Shown here: piece by piece, positions 31,421 to 48,682 of the stretch
Layout: every line of letters starts with the position of its first letter
Position numbering within the stretch: the first letter of the stretch is position 1
Translations under genes and position numbers: made by a program
The notes under the pieces: generated by a model
Told to the model about the DNA's origin: nothing
The model's input: only the letters and a program-made list of their open reading frames with translations
The model's database searches: none
Assembly (NCBI GenBank): GCA_020060385.1
Contig: JAGVAH010000082.1
Span: forward strand, 1-64,000
Direction of reading: 5' to 3'
DNA: 64,000 nucleotides
Source: Syntrophobacterales bacterium
GTDB taxonomy: Bacteria; Desulfobacterota; Desulfobaccia; Desulfobaccales; 0-14-0-80-60-11

Positions 31421-33058
31421 TTATTTGGCTATGGGTAATAAGACTTTGGGAGAGATACGGTCACCCGGAGGAACATCCAATCCCCGTTCCTGCATGATGA
31501 CCGTGATTTTTTCCCCCACGATCTGCCGCATCATTATCAGGTCCTCGCCCATGGCGCAGGAATTCAGATAACTCTTTAATCTGGTGGGGTTTTGCTTCCA
31601 GATCCCGATTAATTGTTTCCAGAACTGCAGCCGGGCCGACGAACGGATCCCTTGCCACCAGAGGAGCCTAAGCAAAGCCCGGATCTCATAGCATTTCTGA
31701 CGCCAAGTCATCTTGCGGGGCTCATAGACGCTGCTGCTCGGCGGGAGTTCTCCTTTAGCTATTGCCATGGCCCGGCGCGTCGGCCGCATAGCCAGGTGGA
31801 AGCGGTAGGCCCTCTCCAGAAAATGAGAAGGTTCGTAGAGATAGTTCCAAGCATCGATATATTCCTGCATTATCTCCGCTTCCGGCCGGTCCGGATGATA
31901 ATTCATGGCGCCAAAGGTCCCACCCTTGTCGGTATGCTCCTCAGCTCGCAGCCTTCCTTCTTTCTCCAATCGCTGCCATAGCTTGGTATGGTGAGGAGCC
32001 TGCAGGAGACCGAGCATGGCGATGGGCAGGGAAGTCTGGTCCATAAAGGCGCAGATGCGCTGGCCGGTGCCTTTGGTTTCCCCGTCCAGGCCCAGGATAA
32101 AACTGCCTATAACAATCATCCCATTATGCTTGAGATTGTTGACCGATTCTACCAAGGGATTATGGAGGTTGGGATATTTGTGGCTGATATGGAGAGCTTT
32201 CTCGTCAGGGGACTCGATGCCGATAAAAACCGTCCCCACGTTGGCATCGGTCATAAGGTCGATCAAGTCCACATCCTGCCCCAGATTTAAGGACGCCTGG
32301 GTCATGAAGCAGAAGGGCTCCCCCCGGCTTTTCAACCAAGGTGACATTTCCTGCAAGAGATTCAGGACATACTTCTTGCTACCGATGAAGTTGTCGTCGC
32401 AGAGGAAGACATTGCCGGTGGCGCCCAGCCGGTAGAGGTTTTCCAGTTCGGCGATTACCTGCTGGGTGGTTTTATGCCGGGGTTTGCGCCCAAAGAGATT
32501 CACCACATCGCAGAATTCGCAGTCAAAAGGGCAGCCCCTGGTGGTCTGAATCGCCACGCTGGTATAATCCTCTAACCGGATCAGATCATACCGGGGGATG
32601 GGCGAGGTGGTTAAATCCGGCTTTCCCTTATTTTCGACCACTCCCTTCTTGCCGTCGCGCATCGCCTCCAGAAGCAAATGGATGGTATTCTCCCCTTCGC
32701 CCCGCACCACGAAATCACAGCCCGCGTTCAGGGCCTCTTCCGGCAGGGAAGTGGGGTACGGGCCTCCGGCCACCACGGTTTTGCCCCGCTGCTTGCCTTC
32801 CCTGACCAGGGCCAGGAAGCCCTCCTTTTGAATGTACATGGCCGACAGTAAAATCAAATCGGCCCACTGCCAGTCATTTTCCGTGATTTTTCTGACGCTT
32901 AGATCCGCCAGGCGCAATTCCCATGCTGCCGGCAGCAGGGCAGCCACCGTGAGAAGGCCCAATGGCGGCACGATGGTTTTGGCGCCCATAAAGCCGATGG
33001 ATTTCCGAAAACTCCAGAAGGAAAGGGGAAATTCCGGACATACCAACAAAGCCCGCAT
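31421..33058 (-). CDS. B12-binding radical SAM protein, DUF4070 type
   Basis: 545 residues. The N-terminal 140 residues form a B12-binding-like Rossmann domain; the radical SAM motif TTRGCPFDCEFC has Cys176, Cys180 and Cys183 binding the 4Fe-4S cluster; the C-terminal region from about 300 matches the DUF4070 type. The start (MRALLVCPEFPLSFWSF) resembles that of hopanoid-modifying enzymes such as HpnP, which methylate lipids, but equal similarity to uncharacterised members is possible. It lies near a second radical SAM gene and upstream of a lipid-type operon, which makes a lipid substrate plausible. Confidence 0.85.
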   Translation of the reverse strand: MRALLVCPEFPLSFWSFRKSIGFMGAKTIVPPLGLLTVAALLPAAWELRLADLSVRKITENDWQWADLILLSAMYIQKEGFLALVREGKQRGKTVVAGGPYPTSLPEEALNAGCDFVVRGEGENTIHLLLEAMRDGKKGVVENKGKPDLTTSPIPRYDLIRLEDYTSVAIQTTRGCPFDCEFCDVVNLFGRKPRHKTTQQVIAELENLYRLGATGNVFLCDDNFIGSKKYVLNLLQEMSPWLKSRGEPFCFMTQASLNLGQDVDLIDLMTDANVGTVFIGIESPDEKALHISHKYPNLHNPLVESVNNLKHNGMIVIGSFILGLDGETKGTGQRICAFMDQTSLPIAMLGLLQAPHHTKLWQRLEKEGRLRAEEHTDKGGTFGAMNYHPDRPEAEIMQEYIDAWNYLYEPSHFLERAYRFHLAMRPTRRAMAIAKGELPPSSSVYEPRKMTWRQKCYEIRALLRLLWWQGIRSSARLQFWKQLIGIWKQNPTRLKSYLNSCAMGEDLIMMRQIVGEKITVIMQERGLDVPPGDRISPKVLLPIAK

Positions 33059-33214
33059 AGTCTTTATACTCCATCCCGGCCGCGATTAGGCCGCTTCTTG
33101 TCTTGATAATAGCGAATCATACCCGCTAAAGGCCAGCTTTTTCCGCCTCCATCCCTGCTAGGCGCACTGAGTTTCCTCATTAAGCCGCGGCCAGAGTCAC
33201 TTTCGGTCCAGGGT

Positions 33215-34639
33215 TTAAATATCCAATTTCAGCGCCCGTTGACGCCCGGAGATCGTATTGTAAAAATCAGCGCCAATAGCTTTTAAGATGCTGCGGAGAA
33301 AGTATCCCTTATGATGGCGCAAAAAGTAATTAATCTTTATTTGGGAAAGGTTAAAGTTGCTCTTGACCCCCAATCTTTTCAAAAGGCGGTATAGTTCGTC
33401 GCAGCTCAGATGATGGGTACGGATGTTGCAGTTGAAACCGTCGTAACTGCGAAAGTCATCCGGGTTGACCACGAGTCCGGCCTCTAATAGTTCCTGGCGC
33501 ACCACGGTTTTGGGGTAAGGGGTCAGGTATTGGGCGTAGATTAAATCCGGCTGCAGCTGCTCCGTCAGATGCCAGTTCTTGGTGACCGTTTCCCGGGTAT
33601 CTTCGGGATAACCCACAATCAAGCCGGCGATGATGGCGATGCCGTGCTGCCGCAGTAAAGTAGCCGCCCTCCGGTTGATTTCCGGGTTGGTGGGCTTCTT
33701 CACCCCCTTCAGGTAACTGGGGTCCATGGATTCGAAGCCCACAAAGACTATCCGGAAATTGGCCCGCTGCATGTCGGCCACCAGCTCGGGATTTTGGGCG
33801 ATGCCCACCGCGCTGGCCTGGGTCACAAAGAGCATGTCATTTAATCGATGCTCGACTATGGCCTGGCAAACTCCCCGGAAATGATCGATGTCATAAGTGA
33901 TATTGTCGTCGCCGAAAAAAACCGCCCGGAAACCGAGGCTGCGGATGTTTTCCAGGTCGGCGATGATGCGGGGCACGGGAAAACGCCGGTAAGTATGGCC
34001 ATACATGCGGGTGATGGAACAGAACTTACAGTTATAAGGGCAGCCCCTGGAGGTTTCGGCCACGTCCATGGGCAGATCCAGCAGATAAAAATCTTGGGAT
34101 AGTCTGGCCTGGCGGCGGGGGAGAGCAATGGTCTCCAAATCCAACAGAGCCCGGTCAGGGTTGTGCACCCAACCCTTATCTCCCCGGTAGCTTAACCCCG
34201 CTATTTTGCCCAATTCCGGTTCCGGTGCGGCCAATGCGGCAATCAATTCCCGAAAGGTGGCCTCACCCTCACCCCGGATCAGGAAATCCAAGGGTAATTC
34301 TCCGGCCGCGGCTGTCTCTTCTTTGGCCATCAGGGTGGCGTGATACCCTCCGGCCGCAATCTTGATGGATGGGTCAAAGCCCCGGATATACCGGGCCACC
34401 TGCAACAGGGTATGGAACTGGAAGGTCATGGCGCTCAGGCCCACCACCTGCGGGCGCAAATCAGCCAGGGCTTTCTCCAGGGGTTTGCGGATGCGGGGCT
34501 TGTGGAGCACCAGGTCCAGGACCCGAACTTCATGTCCCGGCAAATTGCCGGCCAGGGAGATGAGGGCCAAATTGGGCAAGCGGGTGAGAAAATCAATAAC
34601 CTCAGTGGTGTCCGGCATGGCGATGAGTAAGATTCGCAT
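33215..34639 (-). CDS. B12-binding radical SAM protein (second)
   Basis: 474 residues from the ATG at 34639 (after GAGGAGCTGC). B12-binding-like domain at 1-140 (VVGLSAMTFQFHTLLQVARYI; AGGYHATL), radical SAM motif SRGCPYNCKFC (Cys200, Cys204, Cys207), and a partial TIM barrel with FFGDDNITYD and GFESMDP. Members of this group methylate or rearrange unreactive carbons in lipids, peptides or pigments. About 155 bases separate it from the downstream radical SAM gene on the same strand; the proteins differ enough not to be recent duplicates. Confidence 0.87.
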   Translation of the reverse strand: MRILLIAMPDTTEVIDFLTRLPNLALISLAGNLPGHEVRVLDLVLHKPRIRKPLEKALADLRPQVVGLSAMTFQFHTLLQVARYIRGFDPSIKIAAGGYHATLMAKEETAAAGELPLDFLIRGEGEATFRELIAALAAPEPELGKIAGLSYRGDKGWVHNPDRALLDLETIALPRRQARLSQDFYLLDLPMDVAETSRGCPYNCKFCSITRMYGHTYRRFPVPRIIADLENIRSLGFRAVFFGDDNITYDIDHFRGVCQAIVEHRLNDMLFVTQASAVGIAQNPELVADMQRANFRIVFVGFESMDPSYLKGVKKPTNPEINRRAATLLRQHGIAIIAGLIVGYPEDTRETVTKNWHLTEQLQPDLIYAQYLTPYPKTVVRQELLEAGLVVNPDDFRSYDGFNCNIRTHHLSCDELYRLLKRLGVKSNFNLSQIKINYFLRHHKGYFLRSILKAIGADFYNTISGRQRALKLDI

Positions 34640-34951
34640 GCAGCTCCTCATTGACCCCAATCAGCCGCGGCCCTAGCTGCCTTGGGAGGTTTGTGGGGAA
34701 GTGGCTCTTGAAGGGCTCTAATCCGGGATGCGGCCGCACCCTCGGCCACCCTGGGCAAAAAATGGTTTTTTAGAACCTCTCTGCCCAGTGAAAATCTTCT
34801 TGAATTTCTGTGCCTTAAGCCAGATCATCTCCTTGTTTTGAACCATCGCCACACTCCTGGATATGAAGGCAGTCCAGGAGATCTGGATGTCCATCATTGT
34901 TTAATCTTCAGGCTGCCAAAAGATCGAACCGGGGCAAAGGCGAGTCGCACA
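34640..34951. other. Intergenic region, nothing recognised
   Basis: No gene, hairpin or repeat of note. It separates the second radical SAM gene from the end of the large membrane-protein operon on the same strand, so it may hold the promoter of the radical SAM gene. Confidence 0.4.
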
Positions 34952-36802
34952 TTAGCGGGGTGGCGTCCTGCTGCAAGACCCCTCTCCCCGCAGACAGGCT
35001 CGCATATCCAGAAGCCGTTGCTGGGCATTTACAAATATGCCAGGAAAAACGTCCGGACGCAAGAGGACAAAGCCCTTCTGAGCCCGGATCAGGCCGCGGA
35101 TCTCGCGGTTGAAAGGCGCAAAGAAGGGGCAGTCCACCCGTTCCCCCAGCCTTGGCCCGCTGCTCCGCAAGGGCGGGTCAAAGGGGGCCAGGAACCGCCC
35201 TCCGGCCAGGAATTCCGGGGTAAAATGACGTTCATCCACCACCAGGAAGGCGACCCCATATTTCCGGCAAAAATCCCGGACCACCTGGGGGTCGGTGGCA
35301 TAATAAGCCTGGAAAAAATCCTGTAGACGGGGCCTGATCTTTTGCCAATAGCCCCGGCTCCAGGGATGGGCCAGCTCATAGTTGACCAGGACCGGGCGCC
35401 GGGCAAAGGTGGGGAGATTATCCATCAGGTTGGGGTGACCCGCGAAGATCGCGGACTTGGGGGTCTGGGCCACCGCCCGGTACAAGGGCCGGTAGGCGGA
35501 AAAATCTTTCAGGCCCACATTGTGCAGACGCAAGCCCGCCAGCACCGCCACCAGGGCCACGGCCACCACGGGCAGCCAGCGGGGCCAGGGCCGGACCCGG
35601 GTGGCCCCTTCCAGGCCCAGGGCCAGGCCCAGGCCATAGACCAGGTTAAGGGTATAGACCAGGTACCGGTCCGGAATAAATAACTTCAGGAGAAAGAGCC
35701 GGGCCAAAAAATAGAGGAGGAAGGAGGACCAAAGGAGATACCAGAAGGGTTGCAGCCGGGGTTTCAGGTCCTGCCAATTTAGGAGCCTGCCTCCCCAGAC
35801 CGCCACTCCCAGAAGGAAGACCCCTCCCAGGACGCCGCCGCCCACCCCCAAGTCGAAGGGCGCGATGGACTCCCAGGGACTGAGCACTTCCCAAAAAATC
35901 GAGGGCACAGGGACGATGGGGAAGCGGCCCTGGGCGGTGAATTCCGGGCGATGGGCCATCTCCGCGGCGGTCACCAGGGGACCGAAGCCCAGGGCGTTGT
36001 ACTGGTGATTCATGAGCCAGACCAATCCGGCTCCCAGGATCACGGCGAGGAGGTGGCCCCAATTCAGCCAGGACGGTGCCGCCCCTCTGCCGGTGCGGCC
36101 CGCCAGCCAGGCCAGCGCCGCGGCCCCGGCCCCCACCAGGAAGATATAGGGAATAAAGAGGGCCTGGAGCAGCAGGGCCAGGGCCAGGCCCCAGGGACTG
36201 CCCGCCAGCCAGCAGAGGCAATAAAAGGCCAACAGGGGCGCAGCAAAGGCCCGGGCCAGACCCCCGGACAGGTTGTCCAGGAAGAAGGGCATCAGCCAGT
36301 AAACCCCCAGGGAGAACCAGGCCAGGCGGCGGGAACCCAGGCAGGCGCCGATCCGGAACAAACACCAACCCAGAAAAACGAACAACAGACCCGGCAGCCA
36401 CTTGGATAAAATGATGGGACCCACCCCCGCGGCAGGCAGGGGATATGGCCCCGTGCCCCACAGGGACAGGCATATCAACGACAGGCCCGGGAACAATTTC
36501 GCAAAAGTGTGGGGATCCAGCAGGGGGGAGACCAGCCAATAGAGCCCTTTAACCCCCCAGGGAACATAGGTCCGGGCATAGGCGGTCAGGAGATCATCGG
36601 GGAAAAGCTGGGGATCCTCCCATTGCTGCATCCAATAAATCTGTTGGCGCACGTCGTCATTGATGACCCAGTGGCTGGTCAAGGCCTGAAAGTGGGCCAA
36701 GACGAAAATGACCGCGGAGAGGATGACTACCAGAACCGTATCAGTCCAGGGGATGGTTGCCGGTGGCGGCGTACTGGCGGTGGGGTTAGATTTCCTTTTC
36801 AA
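34952..36802 (-). CDS. Large polytopic membrane protein (GT-C-like), last gene of lipid/exporter operon
   Basis: 616 residues. About 12 hydrophobic helices between residues 20 and 430, then a soluble C-terminal domain of about 185 residues. The first loop carries HWVINDDVRQQIYWM, with the acidic pair after TM1 that is typical of GT-C glycosyltransferases using lipid-phosphate sugar donors. The rest (PYIFLVGAGAAALAW; RYLVYTLNLVYGLGLALG) fits but gives no specific family. The gene overlaps the end of the GNAT gene by 17 bases, so it is translated with it. A role in glycosylating or moving a lipid product is an inference. Confidence 0.7.
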   Translation of the reverse strand: MKRKSNPTASTPPPATIPWTDTVLVVILSAVIFVLAHFQALTSHWVINDDVRQQIYWMQQWEDPQLFPDDLLTAYARTYVPWGVKGLYWLVSPLLDPHTFAKLFPGLSLICLSLWGTGPYPLPAAGVGPIILSKWLPGLLFVFLGWCLFRIGACLGSRRLAWFSLGVYWLMPFFLDNLSGGLARAFAAPLLAFYCLCWLAGSPWGLALALLLQALFIPYIFLVGAGAAALAWLAGRTGRGAAPSWLNWGHLLAVILGAGLVWLMNHQYNALGFGPLVTAAEMAHRPEFTAQGRFPIVPVPSIFWEVLSPWESIAPFDLGVGGGVLGGVFLLGVAVWGGRLLNWQDLKPRLQPFWYLLWSSFLLYFLARLFLLKLFIPDRYLVYTLNLVYGLGLALGLEGATRVRPWPRWLPVVAVALVAVLAGLRLHNVGLKDFSAYRPLYRAVAQTPKSAIFAGHPNLMDNLPTFARRPVLVNYELAHPWSRGYWQKIRPRLQDFFQAYYATDPQVVRDFCRKYGVAFLVVDERHFTPEFLAGGRFLAPFDPPLRSSGPRLGERVDCPFFAPFNREIRGLIRAQKGFVLLRPDVFPGIFVNAQQRLLDMRACLRGEGSCSRTPPR

Positions 36803-37928
36803 AGATACGGAAGGTCTTGTAGCGTTCGGCCCCGAAAATCTTAAAGGCCTTCATGTAGTGGCGCAGGTTTTCGGGGATTAGGGAAAGATCGCAAAACTCA
36901 CAGGGGGTTTCCCGGACCGCGTCCACATAGCTCTTGAGGATCAGGGCCTGATGCAGCTTACGCCTCTGGTAGCGCTGCCGCACCCCCAGCACCAGGGCCC
37001 GGGCCTTCTTGACGGGTTGGTATTTGGCGGCATAGAGGAGCCGCAGCTTGTTCCAGAAGGACAATTTACCGTTGAAGGTCTTCACCAGGGGGTTGAGGTC
37101 CGGGAGGACGATGGAGAAGGCCACCAAATCATCGCCGTCCAGCAGGCTGCTCACCAGATTGGGACGCAGAAGCAGCTTCAGTTCCTCATAAAACGACTGG
37201 AACTGCTTCCGGGTGAGGGGAATGTGGCACCAATTGGAGCTCCAGGCTTCATTAAAGAGCTCATAGACCTCTTCCCGGCGGCGCTCCAACTCCCGGGGGT
37301 CATAGGGAGCGAGCCGCAAGTTCTGGCCCTGGAGGATTTCCGCGATCTTTGTTTCCAGAGGCTCCACAGGGAAACGCTGGGTGAGGCGCAGGGCATAGAA
37401 ATCAAAGGTCTTGCGAAACCCCAGGTCTCCCAAAAACTGGGCGTAATACGGGGGATTATGGGATTGGAACATGGCGGGCAGGGAATCGAAACCATCCACC
37501 AGCAGACCCACTTCATCGTAAATGGAGAAGCTCAAGGGGCCCAAGAGCCGCGTCCGGCCCCGCTGCCGCAACCAGTCGGCCGCAGCCTGAAAAAGGGCCG
37601 CGGTCACCTGGGGCTGCGGCAGGCTTTCAAAAAAACCGAAAAAACCGGTTACCCGGTCGTAAATCTCGTCATAGAGGTGGTTGATGTGCGCGGAGATGCG
37701 CCCTGCGGGCCGTCCTCCCTGGAGAGCCAGGAAATATTGGGCCTCCCCGTGCTCGAAGAAAGGGCCCTTGGCAGGGTCCAGGAAGTCCCGCTGGTGGGCC
37801 AGGAGAGGAGGCACCCAATAGGGATCGTGCTGGTAGATGCGCCAGGGCAGGCGGAGAAATTCCCACAAGCCCCCCTCCCCCCGCACGGGAATGACCGTAA
37901 CTCCCTCCCGTTTATCAATGAACGGCAC
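36786..37928 (-). CDS. GNAT-fold acyltransferase resembling bacterial ceramide synthase (bCerS/YghO group)
   Basis: About 380 residues. The N-terminus (EFLRLPWRIYQHDPYWVPPLLAHQRDFLDP, then GPFFEHGEAQYFLAL and GRPAGRISAHINHL) is the signature of a large GNAT-related family that includes YghO and the bacterial ceramide synthase described in Caulobacter; GFFGFFES and LGPLSFSIYDEVGLLVDGF continue it. Such enzymes N-acylate long-chain bases. The start is uncertain: GTG at 37928, four bases after the upstream stop, is chosen, while a TTG at 37955 would overlap the upstream gene. The pairing with an SPT-like synthase in the same operon strengthens the ceramide-type reading. Confidence 0.68.
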   Translation of the reverse strand: MPFIDKREGVTVIPVRGEGGLWEFLRLPWRIYQHDPYWVPPLLAHQRDFLDPAKGPFFEHGEAQYFLALQGGRPAGRISAHINHLYDEIYDRVTGFFGFFESLPQPQVTAALFQAAADWLRQRGRTRLLGPLSFSIYDEVGLLVDGFDSLPAMFQSHNPPYYAQFLGDLGFRKTFDFYALRLTQRFPVEPLETKIAEILQGQNLRLAPYDPRELERRREEVYELFNEAWSSNWCHIPLTRKQFQSFYEELKLLLRPNLVSSLLDGDDLVAFSIVLPDLNPLVKTFNGKLSFWNKLRLLYAAKYQPVKKARALVLGVRQRYQRRKLHQALILKSYVDAVRETPCEFCDLSLIPENLRHYMKAFKIFGAERYKTFRIFEKEI

Positions 37929-37932
37929 AGGC

Positions 37933-38928
37933 CTAACGGGGCTTGCGCACCACAATGCGCACTTTCATGCCCTCTTTGAGGGTCAGGTCGGGATTGTGCA
38001 CCTGGACCTCCGCCTCATAGTAAGAAGGCTGCTCCAGGCCCCCTTGCATGGGCACCCAGGAGAGGCGGCTGATCCGGGCCTCAAACTTGCGCCCGGGGAG
38101 GGATTCCGGGAAGATCTCCGCCTGGTCTCCCACCCGCAAGCGGAGAGTCTCCATTTCATGGACCTGGGCCTTGACTACCAGAGGGTCCATGACCCCCACC
38201 TGAAAGGCCACGGTATTGGGTCCCAGTTCCGCGTCTTCCCGGAGATCAGGATGCACAAAAAGCACATATCCGTCGATGGGGGCCTTCAGGGCCGCCTCCT
38301 TGAGCAAGTGGCCGGGACTCAGGGAGTCCCCCATCTGGGTCTTTAAGACCTGCAGTTCCTCAGCGGCCAACGCCTTTTCCTGCTGCAGGTTGGCCTGCAC
38401 GGCATTCCGCTGCTTCACCAGGAGCTGCCACTCTTTTTCGGCCTGGGTCCGGGCCTGGTTGGAGGCCAGTTTTTGCTCTGCCAGTTGGATGACTTCCCGG
38501 CGTTTGACGGCCGCCCGGTCCAGGGCCCTTTGCACCTCGGCCAGTCTCATCTCCAGGTCTTTGATTTGGGGTGGGGATAAGCGCCGCCGCAACTGCATGG
38601 TGGCCTCCGTGGTGAGGCGGTAGCGGGCCAAAACCTCCCCTGCTTGCACCTTTTGCCCGGCCTGGACGGCCAGGGAAGTGATAATCCCCTTAAAGGGCAG
38701 GATCACCTGTCGCTTCACGGGGCAGCTGAATTTCCCCATAAAGGAGATTTCCGACAACCCTGGTTCCACCGGAAGCGGCCCGGTGACCTTATCCGGCCCC
38801 GGGGCCTTCTCCGAGCTGGTGCCCCAGGAGGGGGAGCTAACCAGGGCCAGACAAATAACGATAACGGCCCCGGCCAGCCAGACCGCCCGCCTATTGCCGC
38901 CAAGAACTCGCATCCACATAACTTGCAT
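37933..38928 (-). CDS. Periplasmic adaptor / membrane-fusion protein (HlyD/MacA-like)
   Basis: 331 residues: N-terminal TM anchor (WLAGAVIVICLALVSSPSWG), a lipoyl-like half (PFKGIITSLAVQAGQKVQAGEVLARY), a coiled-coil hairpin (about 105-205, Gln/Glu/Lys/Arg-rich), the second lipoyl half (LKAPIDGYVLFVHPDL) and a beta-barrel domain (LRVGDQAEIFPES). It should bridge the inner-membrane ABC transporter and the TolC-like channel encoded next to it. GGAG sits 6 bases before the ATG, which lies inside the end of the TolC-like gene (38-base overlap). Confidence 0.85.
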   Translation of the reverse strand: MQVMWMRVLGGNRRAVWLAGAVIVICLALVSSPSWGTSSEKAPGPDKVTGPLPVEPGLSEISFMGKFSCPVKRQVILPFKGIITSLAVQAGQKVQAGEVLARYRLTTEATMQLRRRLSPPQIKDLEMRLAEVQRALDRAAVKRREVIQLAEQKLASNQARTQAEKEWQLLVKQRNAVQANLQQEKALAAEELQVLKTQMGDSLSPGHLLKEAALKAPIDGYVLFVHPDLREDAELGPNTVAFQVGVMDPLVVKAQVHEMETLRLRVGDQAEIFPESLPGRKFEARISRLSWVPMQGGLEQPSYYEAEVQVHNPDLTLKEGMKVRIVVRKPR

Positions 38929-40300
38929 CTAAGTCTCCGGAAAGTTGCCGTAGCTTTACTAATGCCAGATCGTAGTCCAGATTCTTGAGAAAGGTATTTT
39001 TCTGGGCCTCCGCCAAGATCTTGCGCCCATCCAGATACACGGCCAGGGGCTCTCCCCCGGAATGATAACGGATTTGGCTCTGCCGTTCCTTGAGGCGCGC
39101 CAGTTCCTCCTGGGCTCGGGCCGCCTTCCTGGAAGCGTCTGCGGCTCTTACGTTTTCCTGGGCTTCCTGCCACTGATCAGCCAGGCCCATCTCTTTTTCC
39201 TGGGTTTCCGCCTCAAATTGCCGCATGATGGTCTTTTGGCGGGAGATGTTCCGGAGCCGTTTAAACCCATCCCAAACCGGCACGTCCAGGCCCACCGAGA
39301 AGAAAAGGCCCCGGGAATTGGAGGTTAAAGGATCGGGGCTCGTGGCGCCGATAAAGATGGATGGCAGCAATCTGGCCTTGGCCAATAAAATATTATAATT
39401 TTGCAGCTCTTTTTTCAGGGCCGCAATCTTGAGTTCGTAGGAGTGGGTCTTGGCCTGCTCCAGGTTGGCCGCACCCTTGTCAAAGGCTCCCAATACCTGG
39501 CGCCGGGCCTCCTTGTAGTCCAGCTCCAGAGGCTGGCCGGCCTTCAAGCCGATGAAGGCCCGCAAATTGTCCCGGAGCCGGTTCTGGGAATAGATAATAT
39601 GTTCTTTCTCGGCCTGGGCCCCTGCCAACTCCTGCTGGGCCACCTTTATTTCCAGGGAAGTAATGGCGCCGAGATGGAGCCGCTTCTGCAAAAAGGCCAG
39701 ATTCTGCCGGGCCAGATCAATGAGGTTATCCTGACGGGCCGCGGCTTGATGCAGGGCCTCCATCTCCAGAAACATCTTGGCCAGCTTGCGGATACCTTCG
39801 GAAATGACTTGCATGTGGGCCAGGACGGCTATTTGGGTGATCAATTTCCTGGCCTGCAAGCTGAAATAAGACTCCACGGGATTATAATTGGTGCTGAGAA
39901 AACTTAGGGAATAGGGACGGCCGCGCACATCCGACGGTTGATCCACGTAGTACTGGGTCCGGAAAGTTACGGGCGGCACCAGATCAAACTTGCTGTCCTT
40001 TTCATCCAGCCGTTTGACCTCAATCTCCAGGGAGCTTCTGGTGAAAAATGGGGAGCGGACCAGGGCCAGTCGCACCCCTCTATCAAAGTCCACGGGTCCG
40101 GTAACGGCCTGGGACTCTTGGGCCTCGCTCCCTAAAGGCCCCTCTGCCCCCTGGACCCCAGGAGCCGCCGCGGCCAGGGCCAGAACCAGAAGGCTCAAGG
40201 CCAGGACGAAGGGATGTCTTGGGCCCAGCCGCCTCCTCGTTCCTCTCGGGTGCGGCTTGGTCAGACTCTTGGGGACCGCGCTCCGAGGATCAATTCTCAT
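38891..40300 (-). CDS. TolC-family outer-membrane efflux protein
   Basis: 469 residues. A basic N-terminus and signal peptide (FVLALSLLVLALAAAAPGVQG) precede a long helical protein with two repeated halves of TolC type (AGAQAEKEHIIYSQNRLRDNLRAFIGL; EETQEKEMGLADQWQEAQENVRAADASRKAARAQEEL). It should form the outer-membrane channel and periplasmic tunnel for the exporter in this operon. Its ATG overlaps the stop of the ATPase gene by 11 bases. Confidence 0.85.
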   Translation of the reverse strand: MRIDPRSAVPKSLTKPHPRGTRRRLGPRHPFVLALSLLVLALAAAAPGVQGAEGPLGSEAQESQAVTGPVDFDRGVRLALVRSPFFTRSSLEIEVKRLDEKDSKFDLVPPVTFRTQYYVDQPSDVRGRPYSLSFLSTNYNPVESYFSLQARKLITQIAVLAHMQVISEGIRKLAKMFLEMEALHQAAARQDNLIDLARQNLAFLQKRLHLGAITSLEIKVAQQELAGAQAEKEHIIYSQNRLRDNLRAFIGLKAGQPLELDYKEARRQVLGAFDKGAANLEQAKTHSYELKIAALKKELQNYNILLAKARLLPSIFIGATSPDPLTSNSRGLFFSVGLDVPVWDGFKRLRNISRQKTIMRQFEAETQEKEMGLADQWQEAQENVRAADASRKAARAQEELARLKERQSQIRYHSGGEPLAVYLDGRKILAEAQKNTFLKNLDYDLALVKLRQLSGDLDASYVDASSWRQ

Positions 40301-40997
40301 TGAGGATGCCGTCTTCCAGGGAAAATATCCGGGAACAGCGCGCCGCTACTTGGGGATCGTGGGTCACCACTATAAGGGCGGTGTCCCCAGCAGCCACGAT
40401 TTGGGAAAAATGGTCCATCACCATGTGGCCGTGGGTGCGGTCCAGATGACCGGTGGGTTCGTCAGCCAGGATCACCAGGGGTTCATTGACCAGGGCCCGG
40501 GCGATGGCCACCCGCTGCTTCTCCCCCCCGGAAAGATGATTGGCCTGGTGGTGGATACGGTGGGCCAGGTCCACCCTCTGCAAAGCCGCGGCGATCCTCT
40601 CTGGCCGGTCCTGACGTTCGACTTTGGCATAGACCAGGGGGAACTCCAGATTTTCGTAAACCGTGGAGTTTTCAAAAAGATCGCAATTCTGAAAAACGAA
40701 GCCCACTTGGCGGCGGCGGAATTCGGCTTGGGCCGCGCGGCTCAGGGCGAGCATGTCCTGGCCCATGAACTGATAATTTCCCGAAGACGCCGGCATCAGC
40801 AGGCCCAAGATAAAGAGCAGGGTAGACTTCCCCGAACCGGAGGGGCCCATGACCGCCACCATCTCTCCGGGCCGCACCTCCAGGTTGACTCCCCGGAGTA
40901 CCGGGATGACCCCCTGGCCATTGCTGTAATGTTTGGATAATCTGGTGACCCGGATCAAGGGGCCGCCATTTCCCGGGAGCATAAAACCCCTATTCAT
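40290..40997 (-). CDS. MacB/LolD-type ABC transporter ATPase
   Basis: 235 residues with Walker A GPSGSGKST (51-59), Q-loop VFQNCDLFENSTVYENL, signature LSGGEKQR (156-163), Walker B VILADEPTGHLD (176-187) and H-loop VVTHDP: a complete ATPase of the mechanotransmission type. The first ATG (40997) overlaps the permease stop; an internal ATG at 40982 with AGGGG just upstream is an equally good start. It powers the FtsX-like permease encoded immediately upstream. Confidence 0.93.
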   Translation of the reverse strand: MNRGFMLPGNGGPLIRVTRLSKHYSNGQGVIPVLRGVNLEVRPGEMVAVMGPSGSGKSTLLFILGLLMPASSGNYQFMGQDMLALSRAAQAEFRRRQVGFVFQNCDLFENSTVYENLEFPLVYAKVERQDRPERIAAALQRVDLAHRIHHQANHLSGGEKQRVAIARALVNEPLVILADEPTGHLDRTHGHMVMDHFSQIVAAGDTALIVVTHDPQVAARCSRIFSLEDGILNEN

Positions 40998-42168
40998 AAC
41001 GGATAGCAGATACCACTTCCATGCGGCTGGCCTGGAGGGAAGGATAGAGGCCCGCGGCCACCCCCAGTCCCACCGCCACCAGGAGACCCAACAGAACGCA
41101 CATCAAAAAGAGCCCCTCGCCGGGGTGGCTGTGGATCAAGAGGCTGGTGACCTCCACGGATATGAATCCCAAGGCGCTTCCCAACAGGGAGGCGGCCACG
41201 CTGAGACACACGGCTTCCGCCAGAAATTGGGCCATAATGGCTCGATCCTCGGCGCCCATGGCCTTTTTCAGGCCGATTTCCCGGGTGCGGGAGCGCACCG
41301 CCGCCATCATCACCGTCCAAATGCCCAATCCCCCCAGGATCAAGGTGGCCACAATGGAGCTGTAAATGAAAAACTCCACCCACCAGGCCACCGCCTCCAC
41401 CCGGCGCAAATGCTCCCAGGCCACTTCCACCTTGAGGCCCTGGGCGGGCTGGACCGCCTGAATGGCCCCGGGAATAAGAGGGGCCACTTTACTAACGTCT
41501 TCCCAGGTGCGGCAACGCAGGTAGATGCGGTTCGCGGGGCTGATCCTCATAATGCGATTCTCGGCGGTGCTCAAGGGCATAAACGCGAAATGGGCATAAT
41601 CCCCCAGACCCGCGCCGTTGAGCACGGCCAGCACCGTGTATAGCTCTTGCTGGATGGTCAGTTGCTCACCCACCACATTGTCGCGACCGAAGATAGTGCG
41701 GGCCAATTCCGGGCCTAAAATGACCACCCGCTGGCTGAAGCGCAGGTCTTCGGGGGTAAAAAACTTGCCCCTGCGAGGGATCAAGCCGTTGACTTGCCAA
41801 AATGCTGCATCCACGCCCAGCATGGCTAAATTATAATCGCGTCCCTGCCAGCTGGCGAGGACCCAGGGCTGTTGGGCCACCAAGCTGGCCTCGCTCACCC
41901 CCGGCAGGCGGCGTAAGGCGTCCAGAGTGGAGGGCTGAAATCTTTGATAGGCAAAAGAGGGTCGTTTTTCGAAGTAGACCCTGATCAGGGTGGCTTTGCC
42001 CAAGAGTTCCAGGTCCCGATTGAAATTCTTTTTGAGATCCCGGCCCATGGTGATAATGGTGATAAAGCCGGCGGTGCCTATGGCGATGGCCAGCATTACT
42101 CCCCAGTAGCGCCGCCGATGGCGCAGGAGTTGGCGGATGCTGACTCGCAGTAGGTCACCGAGGTGCAA
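40990..42168 (-). CDS. MacB/FtsX-type ABC transporter permease
   Basis: 392 residues: TM1 (about 21-43, WGVMLAIAIGTAGFITIITM), a periplasmic domain of about 220 residues (VSEASLVAQQPW, GRDNVVGEQLTI) and three C-terminal TM helices (272-297, 325-345, 355-380) with REIGLKKAMGA in the coupling loop, as in MacB, FtsX and LolCE. With the separate ATPase it makes a split MacB. These transporters act on substrates in the periplasm or outer leaflet of the inner membrane, fitting export of an amphipathic lipid or peptide through the TolC-like channel. Confidence 0.9.
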   Translation of the reverse strand: MHLGDLLRVSIRQLLRHRRRYWGVMLAIAIGTAGFITIITMGRDLKKNFNRDLELLGKATLIRVYFEKRPSFAYQRFQPSTLDALRRLPGVSEASLVAQQPWVLASWQGRDYNLAMLGVDAAFWQVNGLIPRRGKFFTPEDLRFSQRVVILGPELARTIFGRDNVVGEQLTIQQELYTVLAVLNGAGLGDYAHFAFMPLSTAENRIMRISPANRIYLRCRTWEDVSKVAPLIPGAIQAVQPAQGLKVEVAWEHLRRVEAVAWWVEFFIYSSIVATLILGGLGIWTVMMAAVRSRTREIGLKKAMGAEDRAIMAQFLAEAVCLSVAASLLGSALGFISVEVTSLLIHSHPGEGLFLMCVLLGLLVAVGLGVAAGLYPSLQASRMEVVSAIRYE

Positions 42169-42219
42169 AGGAAAAGGTCCCCCTTTTATCTAATCGGCAA
42201 ACCCTGCAGATTTCTCGAT

Positions 42220-43488
42220 TCAAACGCGCAGGCTCTGGGACGAAAATTGATCTTTGGTCAGAAACGGCTCTCGACCTGCCAAATCCGTGGCGCGGATCCG
42301 GTGTTTTTTCGCCAGGCGATCCAGGGTCTCCAAGACGAATTCGATCTGCCGCTCCTCATGAGTGCTCATATAAGCGGTGCGGATTACGGCTTGTCCCCGG
42401 GGAACTGCCGGAAAGATGGCGGGCAGCGCAAATACGCCGGCTTCAAAGAGGTCCCGGGCAAATGTGGCGGCCTTCAGGTCGTCCCCGATGTGGATGGGTA
42501 TGATGGGGGTTTTTGAATCACCGGTAATGAGGCCGATCTCCTGATAGCCGGCATGCACCCTCCGGGTGATGTCCCAGAGACGCTCGACCCGCTCCGGTTC
42601 CTGCTCCAAGATGTCCAGGCAGCCAAGGACGGTGGCCGCATTGCTGGCGGGCAAGGCTGCAGAAAAAATCAGGGGCCGGGAATTATGGCGCAGATATTCC
42701 AGCACGTCTTCATCATCCGCGGCGATGAATCCTCCCACCGAAGCCAACGCCTTGCTGAAGGTGCCCATAATAAAGTCCACCTGGCTGGTCAGGTCGAAGT
42801 GGGCCACCGTTCCCCGGCCCCCGGGCCCCATTACCCCCAGGCCGTGGGCATCATCCAGGTAGATCAGCAGATCCGGGTATTCCTCCTTCAAACGGATCAG
42901 TTCGGGCAGCGGGGACATGTCTCCGGACATGCTGAACACCCCCTCGGTGATCAGCAATATTAGGGATTGGCTTTTCTTCTCGCGAATAGAGGCCAGCTTT
43001 TTAGCAGCGGCCTCCACATCGTTATGGGCAAAAGGAATGAGCCGGGCCCTGGAGGCCTGGCATCCTTCAAAGATGCTGGCATGGTTCTCCCGGTCGCAAA
43101 GGATGACATCCTGGGGAGTTAACAAACAGGCGATGGCGCCCAGATTGGTGCTAAAGCCGGTGACATGGACCACTGCCTTCTTCTTGTTGACAAAAGCCGC
43201 CAGGCGCTCTTCCAAGACTTCGTGTAAGACTAAGTTTCCGCAGAGAAAACGGGATCCCCCGGCGCCCGTACCCCACCTGCGCAAGGCCTTTGCAGCCGCT
43301 TCCATAACCCGGGGCTCATGGCTCAGCCCCAGGTAGTCGTTAGAACCGATCATGATTAACCGCCGTCCGTCCACCTCCACCTCAGTCCCCCAGGACCGGG
43401 ATAATGGGCGGAAATACGGGTAGTACCCCGCATTTTTGGCGGATTGCACGTAGCGGGCAAAAGGTTGGCAGCGAGTTTTCAGAGACAT
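42220..43488 (-). CDS. PLP-dependent alpha-oxoamine synthase, serine palmitoyltransferase-like
   Basis: 422 residues. The start GYYPYFRPLS then GTEVEVDGRRLIMIGSNDYLGL is the pattern of Bacteroidetes-type serine palmitoyltransferases. GTGAGGSRFLCGN, DRENHASIFEG (His136 stacks on PLP), YLDDAHGLGVMG (Asp213, His215) and GTFSKALASVGG (Schiff-base Lys246) complete an intact active site. The family joins an acyl thioester to an amino acid with loss of CO2; serine palmitoyltransferase gives 3-ketosphinganine, while glycine or alanine users (KBL, BioF, CqsA) are possible alternatives. It is the first gene of a seven-gene operon with an exporter and a bCerS-like gene. A GGAGG lies about 14 bases before the ATG. 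Confidence 0.85.
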   Translation of the reverse strand: MSLKTRCQPFARYVQSAKNAGYYPYFRPLSRSWGTEVEVDGRRLIMIGSNDYLGLSHEPRVMEAAAKALRRWGTGAGGSRFLCGNLVLHEVLEERLAAFVNKKKAVVHVTGFSTNLGAIACLLTPQDVILCDRENHASIFEGCQASRARLIPFAHNDVEAAAKKLASIREKKSQSLILLITEGVFSMSGDMSPLPELIRLKEEYPDLLIYLDDAHGLGVMGPGGRGTVAHFDLTSQVDFIMGTFSKALASVGGFIAADDEDVLEYLRHNSRPLIFSAALPASNAATVLGCLDILEQEPERVERLWDITRRVHAGYQEIGLITGDSKTPIIPIHIGDDLKAATFARDLFEAGVFALPAIFPAVPRGQAVIRTAYMSTHEERQIEFVLETLDRLAKKHRIRATDLAGREPFLTKDQFSSQSLRV

Positions 43489-43856: not shown

Positions 43857-45217
43857 TTAAGACCTTGGTCGCGGCCGTAATGGCGGCGTCCCGGAGAGAA
43901 ACCGCCGGATGCTCTCCGCTTGTCCCCAGGTCAGGTGCAGACGTTCCGGATACCAGAATTGGGGGGGCACCATCTGGGGCGCGGCCTCCGGCGGTCTGGC
44001 CGCGCCCCGGTCCAGGCGTTGATAAAAATCCCTGGACGCGCGGCTCATCTGTCCATAGAGCTTCTCCCAGTGGGGCAGGCTGAGGATCTGGCCGCTCACC
44101 ATCACCGCCAGCAGAGCCACCGGCAAAAGGCGGAGCGCCAGGCCAGGGCGCAGCCGCCGCTTGAGAATAACCCAGGCCGTGCCCAAGAGAAGCAAGGTTC
44201 CCATGAGGGTGAACACTGCATAGCGAGGGACAAAGGCTTGATTCACCCCTCTCTGGTAACGGGCCAGGGACACCAGGAAGATGGGCAAGGCATTGCAGGT
44301 CAGGGCCCAGAGCCCCAGGCGCCGCTCCTGGTCGTCCCCCCAGCGCCAGATCAAGGCTACGCTCAGGATCAGGGCCATGGCCCCCAAAACGTGGGCCCAT
44401 ACCGGGAAATGAAAATGCCCCCAAAACAGAAACGTAAAAGGGGAAAGAAAAGCGCCAAAAAACCAGTGCACCAGATAAGTGGGACCGGGCAGGCCCGCCA
44501 TTATGCCCCGGTTATGGCTGGCCGCGGCCGCGAAGCCGGCATAATGAAAATATCCCAGGGCAAAGGCCAGGAAAGCCAGGGCCACGGCCAGGCTCACGGC
44601 CCAGAAGCGGGGCCGCGTTTCTTTGCCCCCGACGATGGCCACATACAGGGGCAAGGCCCAGACCGCCAGGATGGTAAAATTCCAGGAAATTAGGGAACAC
44701 CAGACGCCTAGAGTGATGCCTGGCAGCAAGATCCGGGAGGCAGTCTGCAGGTAATAATGGGTCAGCAGCAAAGCCAGCAGGAAGAAATTGAAACAGAGGA
44801 GGGCGTTGTTGTAAAAGGCCACCTGGGTCAGACTGGTATGGACCGCGGCCCCCCCATAAAACAACCCCAATACCAATGCCGGCAGGGAATTAAAGTGTTG
44901 TTTTAAAAACAAGTAGAACTGAAAGCCCAACAAGCCGCTTAACAGGCAGTTAATCAGCAACAAGGCGTCGTAATGCTCACCGTAAATTTGAGCCAGGCCG
45001 TAATAGACCCCGCGGGAAAGAGGCATCCAGACTTCACCGTCCGGCATGGTCAAGTATTGCCAGAAAGGGTGGCTCACCAGTTGCGAGAGAATGGCCCAAT
45101 CATCCTCAATAAAAAAAAGTGGCCGGGACGCCAAAACAGGGCCACCGGCAGTGCCAAAAAGAGCAAGGCCAATCCGGCCAGATAAATACTCCGGGGCTTG
45201 GTGGGTGCACGTCTCAC
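43857..45217 (-). CDS. Polytopic membrane protein (GT-C-like) with a homopolymer frameshift
   Basis: About 453 residues if intact, with roughly 11 TM helices and the GT-C-like FFIEDDWAILSQL acidic pair after TM1. The N-terminus lies in another frame: GTG at 45217 (after AGAGAAG) opens RRAPTKPRSIYLAGLALLFL then ALPVALFWRPGHFF, a proper first TM helix, and meets the main frame only if the run of 8 T (A on the plus strand, 45111-45118) is read as 9. The continuous main frame has no sensible start (TTG at 45245, no ribosome site). So the gene is either mutated, phase-variable, subject to slippage, or affected by a sequencing error. Donor and acceptor are unknown. Confidence 0.72.
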
Positions 45218-45494
45218 TAAACTTCTCTTGGTTAGTTTTCGGCAAAAAATATCAAAATGATTAATAACGCCAGACCCCGGATCAATTACCCCGGCCTCTT
45301 GACGCGGCGATCACCCGGCCAGATCACCCGGAATCTATTGATAAAAGGCTATCCCCCTATCCTGGCCGGTGCCGGACCAGGACCTCGCCGCCACCTTGGG
45401 GTGAGCGAGTTGCTTTTTGCCGGCAACTCTTGTATGAAGTGGAGAAAGCGCCTGCGCGTCTACTATAACAGAGGAGCAAACGGGGGGAAAGAAC

Positions 45495-46292
45495 TTGTTG
45501 GCAGGGAAAAAGGTGTTGGTGGTCATGCCCGCCTACAATGCCGCCCGCACCCTGGAGCGCACCTTTCAAGACATCCCTTTCGATGTCGTGGACGAAGTTC
45601 TGCTGGTGGACGACGCCTCCCACGACGAAACCCTGGAAGTCGCCCGCCGCCTGGGGATCCGCTGCTTTTTACATGAACGGAATATGGGTTATGGCCGCAA
45701 TCAGAAGACCTGTTATACCGAGGCCCTGAAATCGGGGGCGGACATTGTGGTTATGCTCCACCCGGACTATCAGTATTCCCCGAAGATCATCCCGGCCCTG
45801 GCCGGCCTGGTGGCCAGCGGCGAATACGACGTGGCCATCGGCTCCCGCATCCTGGGGGGCAAGTCCCGCCAGGGGGGCATGCCCGTGTATAAATACCTGG
45901 CCAACCGCCTCCTCACCGCCTTTCAGAACCTATTCCTGGGGGCCAAGCTCTCGGAATACCACACGGGCTTCCGGGCCTTTTCCCGGCAGGTGCTGGAGAC
46001 CTTGCCCCTGTGGGAAAACTCCGACGATTTTGTCTTTGATAACCAGATGCTGGCCCAGGCCATCTTTTTCGGCTTCCGGGTGGGGGAGGCCTCCTGTCCC
46101 ACCCGTTATTTCCCGGAGGCCTCCTCCATCAATTTCCCCCGGAGCGTGAAATACGGCCTGGGGGTGTTGGCCACCTCCCTGCAATTTTTCCTGGAGAAAC
46201 GGGGGTGGGGCCAATACCGCATCTATTCCCCCATGGGGCGCGGCCTGCTTAATCCTCCATATTACTCCGAGCATAGGCTCTCGCGCCATTAG
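45495..46292 (+). CDS. Family 2 glycosyltransferase
   Basis: 265 residues, GT-A fold: [33 protein letters not shown] (nucleotide binding), [23 protein letters not shown] (metal-binding variant of DxD) and [15 protein letters not shown]. It resembles dolichyl/undecaprenyl-phosphate mannose- or glucose-type synthases but has no C-terminal TM helices. It may charge polyprenyl phosphate with a sugar for the GT-C-like proteins nearby, an inference. The start is TTG (45495 or 45498) after GGGGGGAAAG. Confidence 0.88.
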
Positions 46293-47473: not shown

Positions 47474-48682
47474 TTATTTCCGCAAATCCACGGCCACCTT
47501 GACGCTCTCAAAGCGGCGCTTGTTGAAGGCCACCCGGAAGGCCTGGCTGTACTCGCGCAGGGGAAAGGTATGGGAGAGAAGCCCCTGGCTGGGGTAATCC
47601 CCCCGGGCCAGCAGGTCCACGGCCATTTCATAGGTGCGTACTCTCTGGCCTTGAAAATGGCCATAGCCAAACATGGAAGAGCCGGTGAGGCGCAGTTCCC
47701 GGAACCAGAGGCTGGAGAGGTCCACCCGGTTCAAGGTGCCGGCGGTGCCCACCAGCACGTAGGCGCCATGGGCCCTGAGGGCCAGGAGGCCTTCCTGCAG
47801 GGAACTGCTGCTGCCCACGCAGTCAAAGAAGAACTCCGCGCCCCCTTCCGGGTTGCCGCCCCCCAGGGTGGTGGGCAGCATCCGGGCCCCCACGGCCGCG
47901 GCCAGCTCCTTGCGGCTGGGATCAATTAAGACCAGATCCGCGCCTCCGGCCCGGGCCAGGTCTTCCTGGAAGGGGTAGCGGGCCACGGCCACCACCCGGG
48001 CGCCGGGGGCCAGGATCTTAATCAAGCGGAGAAGGTGCTGGCCGATAATGCCGGCCCCATAGACCACCGCGGTCTCCCCCTCCCCGGGGAGGTGGTCCAG
48101 GACCGGCTGCAGGGCCGAGGCCAGGGAATCCGTGAGCACCGCCACTTCGTCCGGCAGATCTGCCGGCACCTTCACCAGGCGGCTGGGGTGCGCGGCCATG
48201 AATTCCGCCATGCCGCCCCCCGCGTCCCGGTGAAAGCCGATGATGGCCCCGGGGGAGAGGCTCCCCTGGGTGAAATTTTCACAGAGATTGTATTCCCCCC
48301 GGTTACAAGGGGGGCAGGGGGGCAAACCCCGGACCTCGCAGGGCAGCACCGGCTCCACCACCACCCGCTCCCCGGGGCGCCAGGCCGAGCCCGGCGGCGC
48401 CTCCGCCACCTCCGCCAGCACCTCGTGGCCCAGGACCGCGGGGAAAGAGGCGTAGGGTTCCAGGAGATAGGATTCCGCGCCTTTCAGCAGACGCAGGTCC
48501 GAGCCGCAAATGCCGCAAACGCGGTTGCGGAGAATCACCCAATCCGGGGCCGGAGGGTGAAGGGGGAGTTCCTGCAACCTGATGGACGCCAGGGCTGGCC
48601 AGAACCGCCGGGGGCAAAACAGGTAGTACCAACGGGACAACAGATACCGGGGAATGGACTGGGTATAGACCAGGGCTTGCAT
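47474..48682 (-). CDS. Zinc-binding alcohol/polyol-type dehydrogenase
   Basis: 402 residues, medium-chain dehydrogenase. CGICGSD (catalytic Cys56/Cys59 area), GHEVLAEV (His86), the structural zinc lobe CPPCNRGEYNLCEN and the Rossmann motif GAGIIGQHLLRLI are visible. The substrate is unknown; the setting among glycosyltransferases suggests oxidation or reduction of a sugar or lipid alcohol. The N-terminal RYLLSRWYYLFCPRRFWPA is longer and more hydrophobic than usual. Confidence 0.88.
   Translation of the reverse strand: MQALVYTQSIPRYLLSRWYYLFCPRRFWPALASIRLQELPLHPPAPDWVILRNRVCGICGSDLRLLKGAESYLLEPYASFPAVLGHEVLAEVAEAPPGSAWRPGERVVVEPVLPCEVRGLPPCPPCNRGEYNLCENFTQGSLSPGAIIGFHRDAGGGMAEFMAAHPSRLVKVPADLPDEVAVLTDSLASALQPVLDHLPGEGETAVVYGAGIIGQHLLRLIKILAPGARVVAVARYPFQEDLARAGGADLVLIDPSRKELAAAVGARMLPTTLGGGNPEGGAEFFFDCVGSSSSLQEGLLALRAHGAYVLVGTAGTLNRVDLSSLWFRELRLTGSSMFGYGHFQGQRVRTYEMAVDLLARGDYPSQGLLSHTFPLREYSQAFRVAFNKRRFESVKVAVDLRK

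Follow-up and report, generated by a model that had tools for sequence, protein, structure and literature searches.

A seven-gene operon conserved among sulfate reducers and a few other anaerobes appears to couple a ceramide-like lipid to its own pump

The stretch analysed here (the window) comprises 64,000 nucleotides of contig JAGVAH010000082.1 from a Syntrophobacterales bacterium (assembly GCA_020060385.1), and this study concerns an operon at positions 34952-43488 made up of seven packed or overlapping minus-strand genes. In the direction of transcription, these encode a serine palmitoyltransferase (SPT)-like alpha-oxoamine synthase (AOS; 42220-43488, 422 aa), a MacB-type permease with the four-segment transmembrane topology of type VII ATP-binding cassette (ABC) systems (40990-42168, 392 aa, TTG start), a LolD/MacB-like ABC ATPase (40290-40997, 235 aa), a TolC-like outer-membrane channel of the OEP family (38891-40300, 469 aa), a periplasmic adaptor of the HlyD/MacA type with one N-terminal transmembrane segment (37933-38928, 331 aa), a predicted tandem-GNAT N-acyltransferase of the bCerS/YghO family (36786-37928, 380 aa, GTG start), and a predicted membrane glycosyltransferase of the GT-C fold (34952-36802, 616 aa, TTG start). 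A 51-base gap separates the synthase gene (43488-42220) from the permease gene (42168-40990), after which the permease and ATPase genes (40997-40290) overlap by 8 bases, the ATPase and channel genes (40300-38891) by 11 and the channel and adaptor genes (38928-37933) by 38; a 4-base gap then precedes the GTG start of the acyltransferase gene at 37928, for which a TTG at 37955 is an alternative, and the last two genes (36802-34952) overlap by 17 bases. All seven open reading frames lie in the close order given by an original prediction made from the letters of the window, and the families that it named for the pyridoxal-phosphate-dependent synthase, ATPase, permease, adaptor and channel are borne out by Pfam matches, with the GNAT fold borne out by a structure model.

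The synthase matches PF00155 (E 7.7e-51), and its best NCBIfam match is the SPT model NF047600 (438.8 bits), followed by BioF (358) and KBL-type (343) models. Its best match in the PDB is the SPT of S. multivorum (SmSPT) at 344 bits, the next structure scoring 266, and residues N50, S79, R80, H136, D213, H215, K246 and R370 align with the SmSPT catalytic residues. A GSR motif is common to both enzymes, whereas the solved cysteate acyltransferases (CFATs) carry GAR and one CFAT-like sequence also carries GSR. A maximum-likelihood tree of 40 sequences places the window synthase within a 17-member clade (support 100/100) composed of exporter-type loci only, plus one locus from a Lentisphaerae metagenome-assembled genome (MAG). 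A 98/95 split separates BioF and KBL from the SPTs together with this clade, which also falls outside the CFAT clade, with the branching order among SPT, CFAT and the window synthase clade unresolved in that tree. Three other identities were considered and rejected: BioF/KBL by both tree and scores, the genome holding one further synthase homolog, a separate BioF-like gene on another contig (C96); CFAT and thus a sulfonolipid by the tree; and a CqsA-type signal synthase by a score of only 125 bits, against 344 for SPT. From its sequence, the enzyme probably condenses L-serine with a long-chain acyl thioester.

The GNAT protein gave no Pfam or NCBIfam match, and a PDB search with the sequence alone likewise gave none, while a profile search returned weak GNAT matches only. 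Its AlphaFold2 model (pLDDT 88.7) has tandem GNAT enzymes as best Foldseek matches (E 2.6e-14, TM-score up to 0.60 by query length). At the level of sequence, it shares 34% identity over 376 aa (194 bits) with a protein on a Roseomonas haemaphysalidis plasmid that is annotated as "dATP pyrophosphohydrolase" and occupies the bCerS position in a Caulobacter-type cluster of acyl carrier protein (ACP), SPT, diacylglycerol kinase, LptF/G, acyl-AMP ligase and short-chain dehydrogenase/reductase (SDR) genes; this protein was equated with bCerS by synteny, and the comparison was made to it rather than to the characterised CC_1154. The YghO protein of P. veronii is 28% identical (176 bits). Homologs occur in 56 of the 148 genomes in our set of relatives, and elsewhere in the phylum they adjoin SPT and an extended-SDR CerR-type gene in many families, often with a PAP2 enzyme, which ties the GNAT family to ceramide synthesis. 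Given this family membership and linkage, the protein would be expected to N-acylate a long-chain base.

Further members of the family were seen in distant hosts. The yghO gene of E. coli K-12 lies near yghQ, yghR, yghS and yghT (L120, 9044-14824), and this region suggests a remnant of a sphingolipid-type cluster because the yghO, yghS, yghR and yghT homologs on a P. veronii plasmid lie with an AOS, small ACP-sized genes and an SDR (L213, 3476-15778). On plasmid 1 of Rubrobacter radiotolerans (L212, 5731-9098), SPT-like, bCerS-like and CerR-like genes are consecutive, beside a gene of the lipoteichoic acid synthase family. A yghO-like gene is also held by NZ_CP141089.1, a 4.9 Mb E. coli record filed as a plasmid that looks chromosomal.

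The four genes between synthase and acyltransferase form a transport quartet. The permease matches MacB_PCD (6.8e-29) and FtsX (3.1e-16), the ATPase matches ABC_tran (7.6e-35) and contains the motifs GPSGSGKST, LSGGEKQR and VILADEPT, the channel matches PF02321 (E 8.8e-25) and has a hydrophobic N-terminal segment, and the adaptor matches HlyD_D23 (2.1e-12). A MacB_PCD and FtsX permease is thus accompanied by an adaptor and a TolC-like channel as in MacAB-TolC, from which the window system differs in that its ATPase is a separate polypeptide and all MacA/MacB equivalog cut-offs are missed (NF007826, 101 and 216 of 966 bits). DevBCA-HgdD, which exports a glycolipid in cyanobacteria, shares its architecture, with a separate MacB-type permease and ATPase, a membrane-fusion protein and a TolC channel, yet the window proteins fall below the Dev cut-offs (DevA 181.1 of 295.8 bits, DevB 36.8 of 129 bits), and the window operon has its own outer-membrane channel gene and is linked to sphingolipid-type genes. 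The window genome contains exactly two LptF_LptG matches, one LptF and one LptG, and no second LptF/LptG pair was found in it. By homology, the quartet may be a dedicated pump for the lipid made by the operon. At the level of families and folds, the earlier claims of an SPT-like rather than KBL/BioF synthase, a bCerS-like GNAT protein and a MacAB-TolC-type exporter are therefore upheld by tree, homology and domain content.

Conservation was examined across the 148 relatives, of which 22 genomes in 9 genera (named members: Desulfobaccales and Desulfobacca MAGs) make up the family of the window; these counts rest mostly on MAGs. The synthase clade is present in 20 of the 22 family genomes, and the exporter genes are next to it in each of the 20, within the limits set by contig ends. 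A permease ortholog lies beside the synthase in each of these 20 genomes and in 0 of the 128 other relatives (at least 366 bits, against 263 bits for the next best score in the 148 genomes; Fisher test of synthase versus permease, p = 4e-25). The gene order, whose conservation in relatives had been named as a check, was indeed found across several orders and phyla, being kept in Desulfobaccales, Desulfovibrionaceae, Syntrophobacteraceae and Verrucomicrobia MAGs, and its recurrence in many genomes at 40-60% protein identity is more than chance. A scan of species genomes added Solidesulfovibrio alcoholivorans DSM 5433, S. aerotolerans DSM 16695, Fundidesulfovibrio agrisoli and Pseudodesulfovibrio, with Solidesulfovibrio and Fundidesulfovibrio being cultured carriers. 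Among 42 clade loci in named records, the full quartet is present in 38, contig ends truncate three more, and the remaining one is a real exception. The linkage of synthase, GNAT protein and exporter claimed for the seven genes is thus recurrent across genomes.

Since MacB-family pumps are abundant with varied substrates (PMC5985334) and neighbouring genes of an operon may serve different pathways, the quartet could instead be a general efflux or envelope-stress pump, or a transporter of the lipoprotein or lipopolysaccharide type, that does not carry the lipid of its neighbours. The distribution just described (20/20 with the synthase clade, 0/128 without it) makes this very improbable, as does the persistence of the quartet through internal rearrangements: in L127/L178 and L158/L161 the permease gene has changed place without leaving the cluster, which points to functional linkage over recent common ancestry alone. 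A strict requirement of the exporter for the operon GNAT was ruled out, given that some genomes with synthase and pump have the GNAT elsewhere or replaced.

The functional surroundings extend beyond the seven genes, as the genes at 43857-45245, 45495-46292 and 47474-48682 recur with them. The last operon gene encodes a protein with about ten to twelve hydrophobic segments, a sub-threshold Dpy19 match as its only Pfam result, and an invariant NDD motif (N48 D49 D50) after the first transmembrane segment. Its AlphaFold2 model (pLDDT 83.4, pTM 0.87) has DPY19, STT3, PglB, AftA and ArnT as best Foldseek matches; this supports the GT-C-like fold first proposed for it and leads one to expect an enzyme acting on the periplasmic side with a polyprenyl-linked sugar. 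Upstream of the synthase, a multi-transmembrane protein (43857-45245, minus strand, 462 aa) gave no Pfam match, is putatively GT-C-like by topology, and holds the same position and strand in most Desulfobaccales relatives that have the operon GNAT. A divergent family 2 glycosyltransferase (GT2; 45495-46292, plus strand, 265 aa; PF00535, E 6e-20) 2 kb upstream of the synthase resembles polyprenyl-phosphate sugar synthases (NCBIfam PpgS/AglJ about 61 bits, below cut-off) and recurs near the operon, including in Desulfovibrionaceae.

Described 3-ketosphinganine and ceramide reductases are SDRs, and the original prediction had suggested that a cerR-type ketosphinganine reductase be sought elsewhere in the genome. 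No CerR ortholog was found in the 99.95% complete window genome, where the best SDR reaches 80.7 bits and is a generic extended SDR, so a hidden CerR was rejected; CerR-type genes in SPT- or PKS (polyketide synthase)-linked positions outside the query's own family score 187-310 bits. G153, G155 and G156 have matches of 128-151 bits that may represent HpnA-like epimerases; these were excluded from the CerR counts. The candidate replacement is a zinc-dependent medium-chain dehydrogenase/reductase (MDR) with ADH_N and ADH_zinc_N domains (47474-48682, minus strand, 402 aa), which has no hydrophobic segment and whose nearest NCBIfam and PDB relatives are ketose reductase and sorbitol and threonine dehydrogenases.

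The candidacy of this enzyme comes from its phyletic pattern. Its gene occurs in 16 of 16 family genomes with an operon-type GNAT ortholog and is absent from G003, G007 and G014, which keep synthase and pump, lack the operon-type GNAT, and have a CerR-type gene as well as a large PKS accompanied by a bCerS paralog. Of 12 more clade genomes, the ten with the operon GNAT all contain the MDR gene (55-63% identity), and it is found in neither of the two that lack that GNAT, these two having the strongest CerR matches. Among the other 128 relatives, only one (G006, 69% complete) has an MDR ortholog with at least 65% identity. An MDR gene, a CerR-type gene or both are thus present in 32 of 32 synthase-clade genomes (20 family and 12 others), as expected if one reductase is needed, and the two genomes with both reductases (G002 and G005) also have both of the modules described below. 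Fisher tests of GNAT versus MDR gave p = 0.002 and 0.015. This complementarity makes the MDR enzyme a likely substitute for CerR; going by what its family does, it could run the threonine dehydrogenase reaction in reverse, from a 2-amino-3-ketone to a 2-amino-3-alcohol.

The product could also be exported as a 3-keto ceramide whose keto group is never reduced, with the MDR enzyme merely co-travelling and serving sugar or other envelope metabolism. The lack of a CerR ortholog (80.7 bits, against at least 187) agrees with this, as do the sugars and polyols on which the nearest MDR relatives act and the oxidised ceramide that accumulates in Caulobacter cerR mutants (PMC11087976). We nevertheless regard it as rather unlikely, for a reductase gene of one type or the other accompanies the clade in 20/20 family and 12/12 other genomes, and in G010, G015, G017 and G020 the MDR gene comes just before the synthase gene in the same orientation.

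In genomes without the operon GNAT, a bCerS paralog (30-33% identity) occurs with a PKS of about 2650 residues and a CerR-type SDR, to which several of them add a sulfotransferase. A constant core of synthase and pump with two interchangeable completing modules is suggested by L167, which combines PKS, bCerS paralog, CerR and the synthase-pump-GT-C set in one locus, and by G009, which has a sulfotransferase of the PKS-module family beside its synthase. The full alternative module, in which the PKS has KS-AT-ACP-KR-DH domains and an NMO domain, was observed in L072, L077, L079, L082, L087, L088 and L167, from Desulfobaccales and one Desulfovibrionaceae MAG, and it possibly makes sulfated PKS-derived sphingolipids.

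With moderate confidence, we favour the reading that the operon serves to make a ceramide-like envelope lipid of the sphingolipid type and to export it. Spt and bCerS are cytoplasmic and CerR periplasmic, with no flippase or transporter known (PMC11087976); MacB-type machines act on periplasmic substrates, and LolCDE removes lipoproteins from the inner membrane (PMC5985334); heterocyst glycolipids are exported by DevBCA-HgdD, in which permease and ATPase are likewise separate (PMC6161253). These locations and precedents lead us to propose cytoplasmic synthesis, flipping, periplasmic glycosylation and export by the pump. In the first step, which we derive from enzyme family and active site, the SPT-like enzyme would join an amino acid, probably serine, to a long-chain acyl thioester to give a cytoplasmic 3-keto long-chain base, to which the tandem-GNAT enzyme would attach a second acyl chain as an amide. 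The MDR dehydrogenase encoded 4 kb upstream, assigned this role because the genome has no CerR ortholog, would reduce the 3-keto group before or after N-acylation; lacking a hydrophobic segment it should be cytoplasmic and would act before flipping, unlike the periplasmic CerR. The lipid would then be flipped and glycosylated in the periplasm by the GT-C enzyme or enzymes, with a polyprenyl-phosphate sugar supplied by the neighbouring GT2. Finally, the permease-ATPase pair would pick it up at the inner membrane's outer leaflet and, with a mechanical stroke of the MacB type, push it through adaptor and TolC-like channel as far as the outer membrane or the cell surface, in the manner of DevBCA-HgdD. 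The sphingolipid-like product and the export by its own pump that were originally envisaged are supported as an interpretation, in which the nature of the product and the cargo of the pump are what we infer.

Several points weigh against this reading. Product, substrate, chemistry and export are all deduced from the genes, and a search of the evidence for an inner-membrane flippase yielded no candidate. The co-occurrence statistics given above take no account of shared ancestry. The exceptional locus (L174, Lentisphaerae) has synthase and GNAT without the exporter quartet, and in several genomes synthase and exporter are present and the operon GNAT is missing. The MDR gene stands apart from the operon, is on another contig in 5 of the 17 family genomes of the synthase clade in which it is present, and occurs in G009 without a GNAT ortholog. 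The synthase misses the NCBIfam SPT equivalog cut-offs (NF047600, 438.8 of 640 bits; NF047599, 344.4 of 500 bits), for which reason "SPT-like" is the correct wording, and the stem of its clade is long (0.72 substitutions per site); stem and cut-offs together indicate that the amino acid or acyl substrate may differ.

A different amino acid, such as alanine leading to 1-deoxy-ceramides, glycine or cysteate, would change the first step only and make the product a sphingolipid analogue. Beyond the separate, long-stemmed clade and the missed cut-offs, this agrees with the correlation of Black Sea 1-deoxyceramides with Desulfobacterota and/or Bacteroidota (PMC11334938), yet it appears somewhat unlikely given that the active-site residues and GSR motif match SmSPT, that the solved CFATs have GAR (one CFAT-like sequence apart), and that the synthase stands outside the CFAT clade. 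A larger departure would be a diffusible N-acylated amino-ketone or amino-alcohol (a signal, antibiotic or siderophore-like compound) secreted to the medium, the pump being a natural-product exporter like PvdRT-OpmQ for pyoverdine. It is common for MacB-type tripartite pumps to be encoded alongside genes for natural products and to secrete soluble compounds (PMC5985334); signals (CqsA) and, as secondary metabolites, PKS-linked sphinganines are further products of AOS enzymes (PMC12134224); and a PKS/sulfotransferase module is paired with synthase and exporter in some relatives. Against this, the synthase is far from CqsA (125 versus 344 bits for SPT), its partner acyltransferase comes from a family whose other links are to ceramide operons, and one or two GT-C genes with a polyprenyl-phosphate-sugar-type GT2 better fit an envelope glycolipid, so that we judge a diffusible product decidedly unlikely.

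Taking the ceramide-like envelope lipid as the product, a more specific and tentative proposal, to which we give somewhat less than even chances, is a CerR-independent sphingolipid pathway in which an MDR unrelated to the SDR reductases completes the base and a MacB-type pump exports the glycosylated lipid, as a first trans-envelope sphingolipid exporter, with the reductase/acyltransferase module swappable for a PKS-CerR-sulfotransferase module on the same synthase and pump. The Caulobacter-type cluster (spt, bcerS, cerR, acpR, aasR and LptC2/F2/G2; PMC11324152) shares the SPT-type synthase, the bCerS-family acyltransferase and adjacent envelope transport genes. It differs in having CerR, ACP and acyl-CoA synthetase genes, which the window operon lacks, a transporter of the Lpt type (LptF/G) instead of the MacB-HlyD-TolC type, and phosphoglycerate head-group genes in place of a GT-C glycosyltransferase; the window also has synthase and acyltransferase within one operon. 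In other Desulfobacterota families, canonical cerR-spt-bcerS(-PAP2) operons (L056-L090) have homologous and adjacent synthase (about 43-51%) and acyltransferase (about 31-40%) genes with a CerR-type SDR, often PAP2, and no exporter, whereas the window operon has exporter and GT-C genes and no CerR. The SgaAB PKS-AOS cluster of Pseudomonas fluorescens MYb115 has an SPT-type AOS in common with the window, and window relatives have a PKS with a bCerS paralog; SgaAB consists of two genes with no exporter described in the part of the source available, and no PKS adjoins the window operon.

In keeping with the original remark that no described cluster of such composition was known, no description of this gene set was found in the literature searched, whose coverage excluded most subscription papers. 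The transporters or flippases that take bacterial sphingolipids to the outer membrane were stated to be unknown in 2024 (PMC11087976, PMC11324152); an exporter encoded with one particular SPT clade, and not found without it in the genomes searched, is a direct candidate for this role. The cultured Solidesulfovibrio or Fundidesulfovibrio make the question of sphingolipid export testable, and Desulfobaccales, Desulfovibrionaceae and some Verrucomicrobia MAGs join the organisms worth lipid study. A survey of Black Sea lipids proposed non-homologous replacement enzymes in general terms (PMC11334938), for which the phyletic swap from CerR to MDR offers a concrete candidate.

Other genes were also observed in the surroundings. 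The window holds a 798-residue protein with two group-1/GT4 glycosyltransferase units (50215-52611), adjoined by a SPASM radical S-adenosylmethionine (SAM) gene (48982-50199) that relatives, too, have in the vicinity of the synthase. In Desulfovibrionaceae L164-L173, a PMT_2 GT-C gene lies ahead of the synthase together with two small genes of unknown family (about 7-9 kb), and after the GT-C gene come genes for a GtrB-like GT2 and an asparagine-synthase-like protein (about 19-21 kb). Downstream of the operon lie two B12-binding radical SAM enzymes on the minus strand, assigned by family match and both regarded as optional partners, at 33215-34660 and, with DUF4070, at 31421-33058. A homolog of the former (64-65%) stands immediately 3' of the GNAT gene in Syntrophobacteraceae L158 and L161, and homologs of the latter come after the GT-C gene in several relatives and beside bCerS paralogs in others. 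Such enzymes recur beside both kinds of bCerS (window 31421-34660; L039, L041, L044, L072, L077, L079, L082, L158 and L161) and may modify lipid chains.

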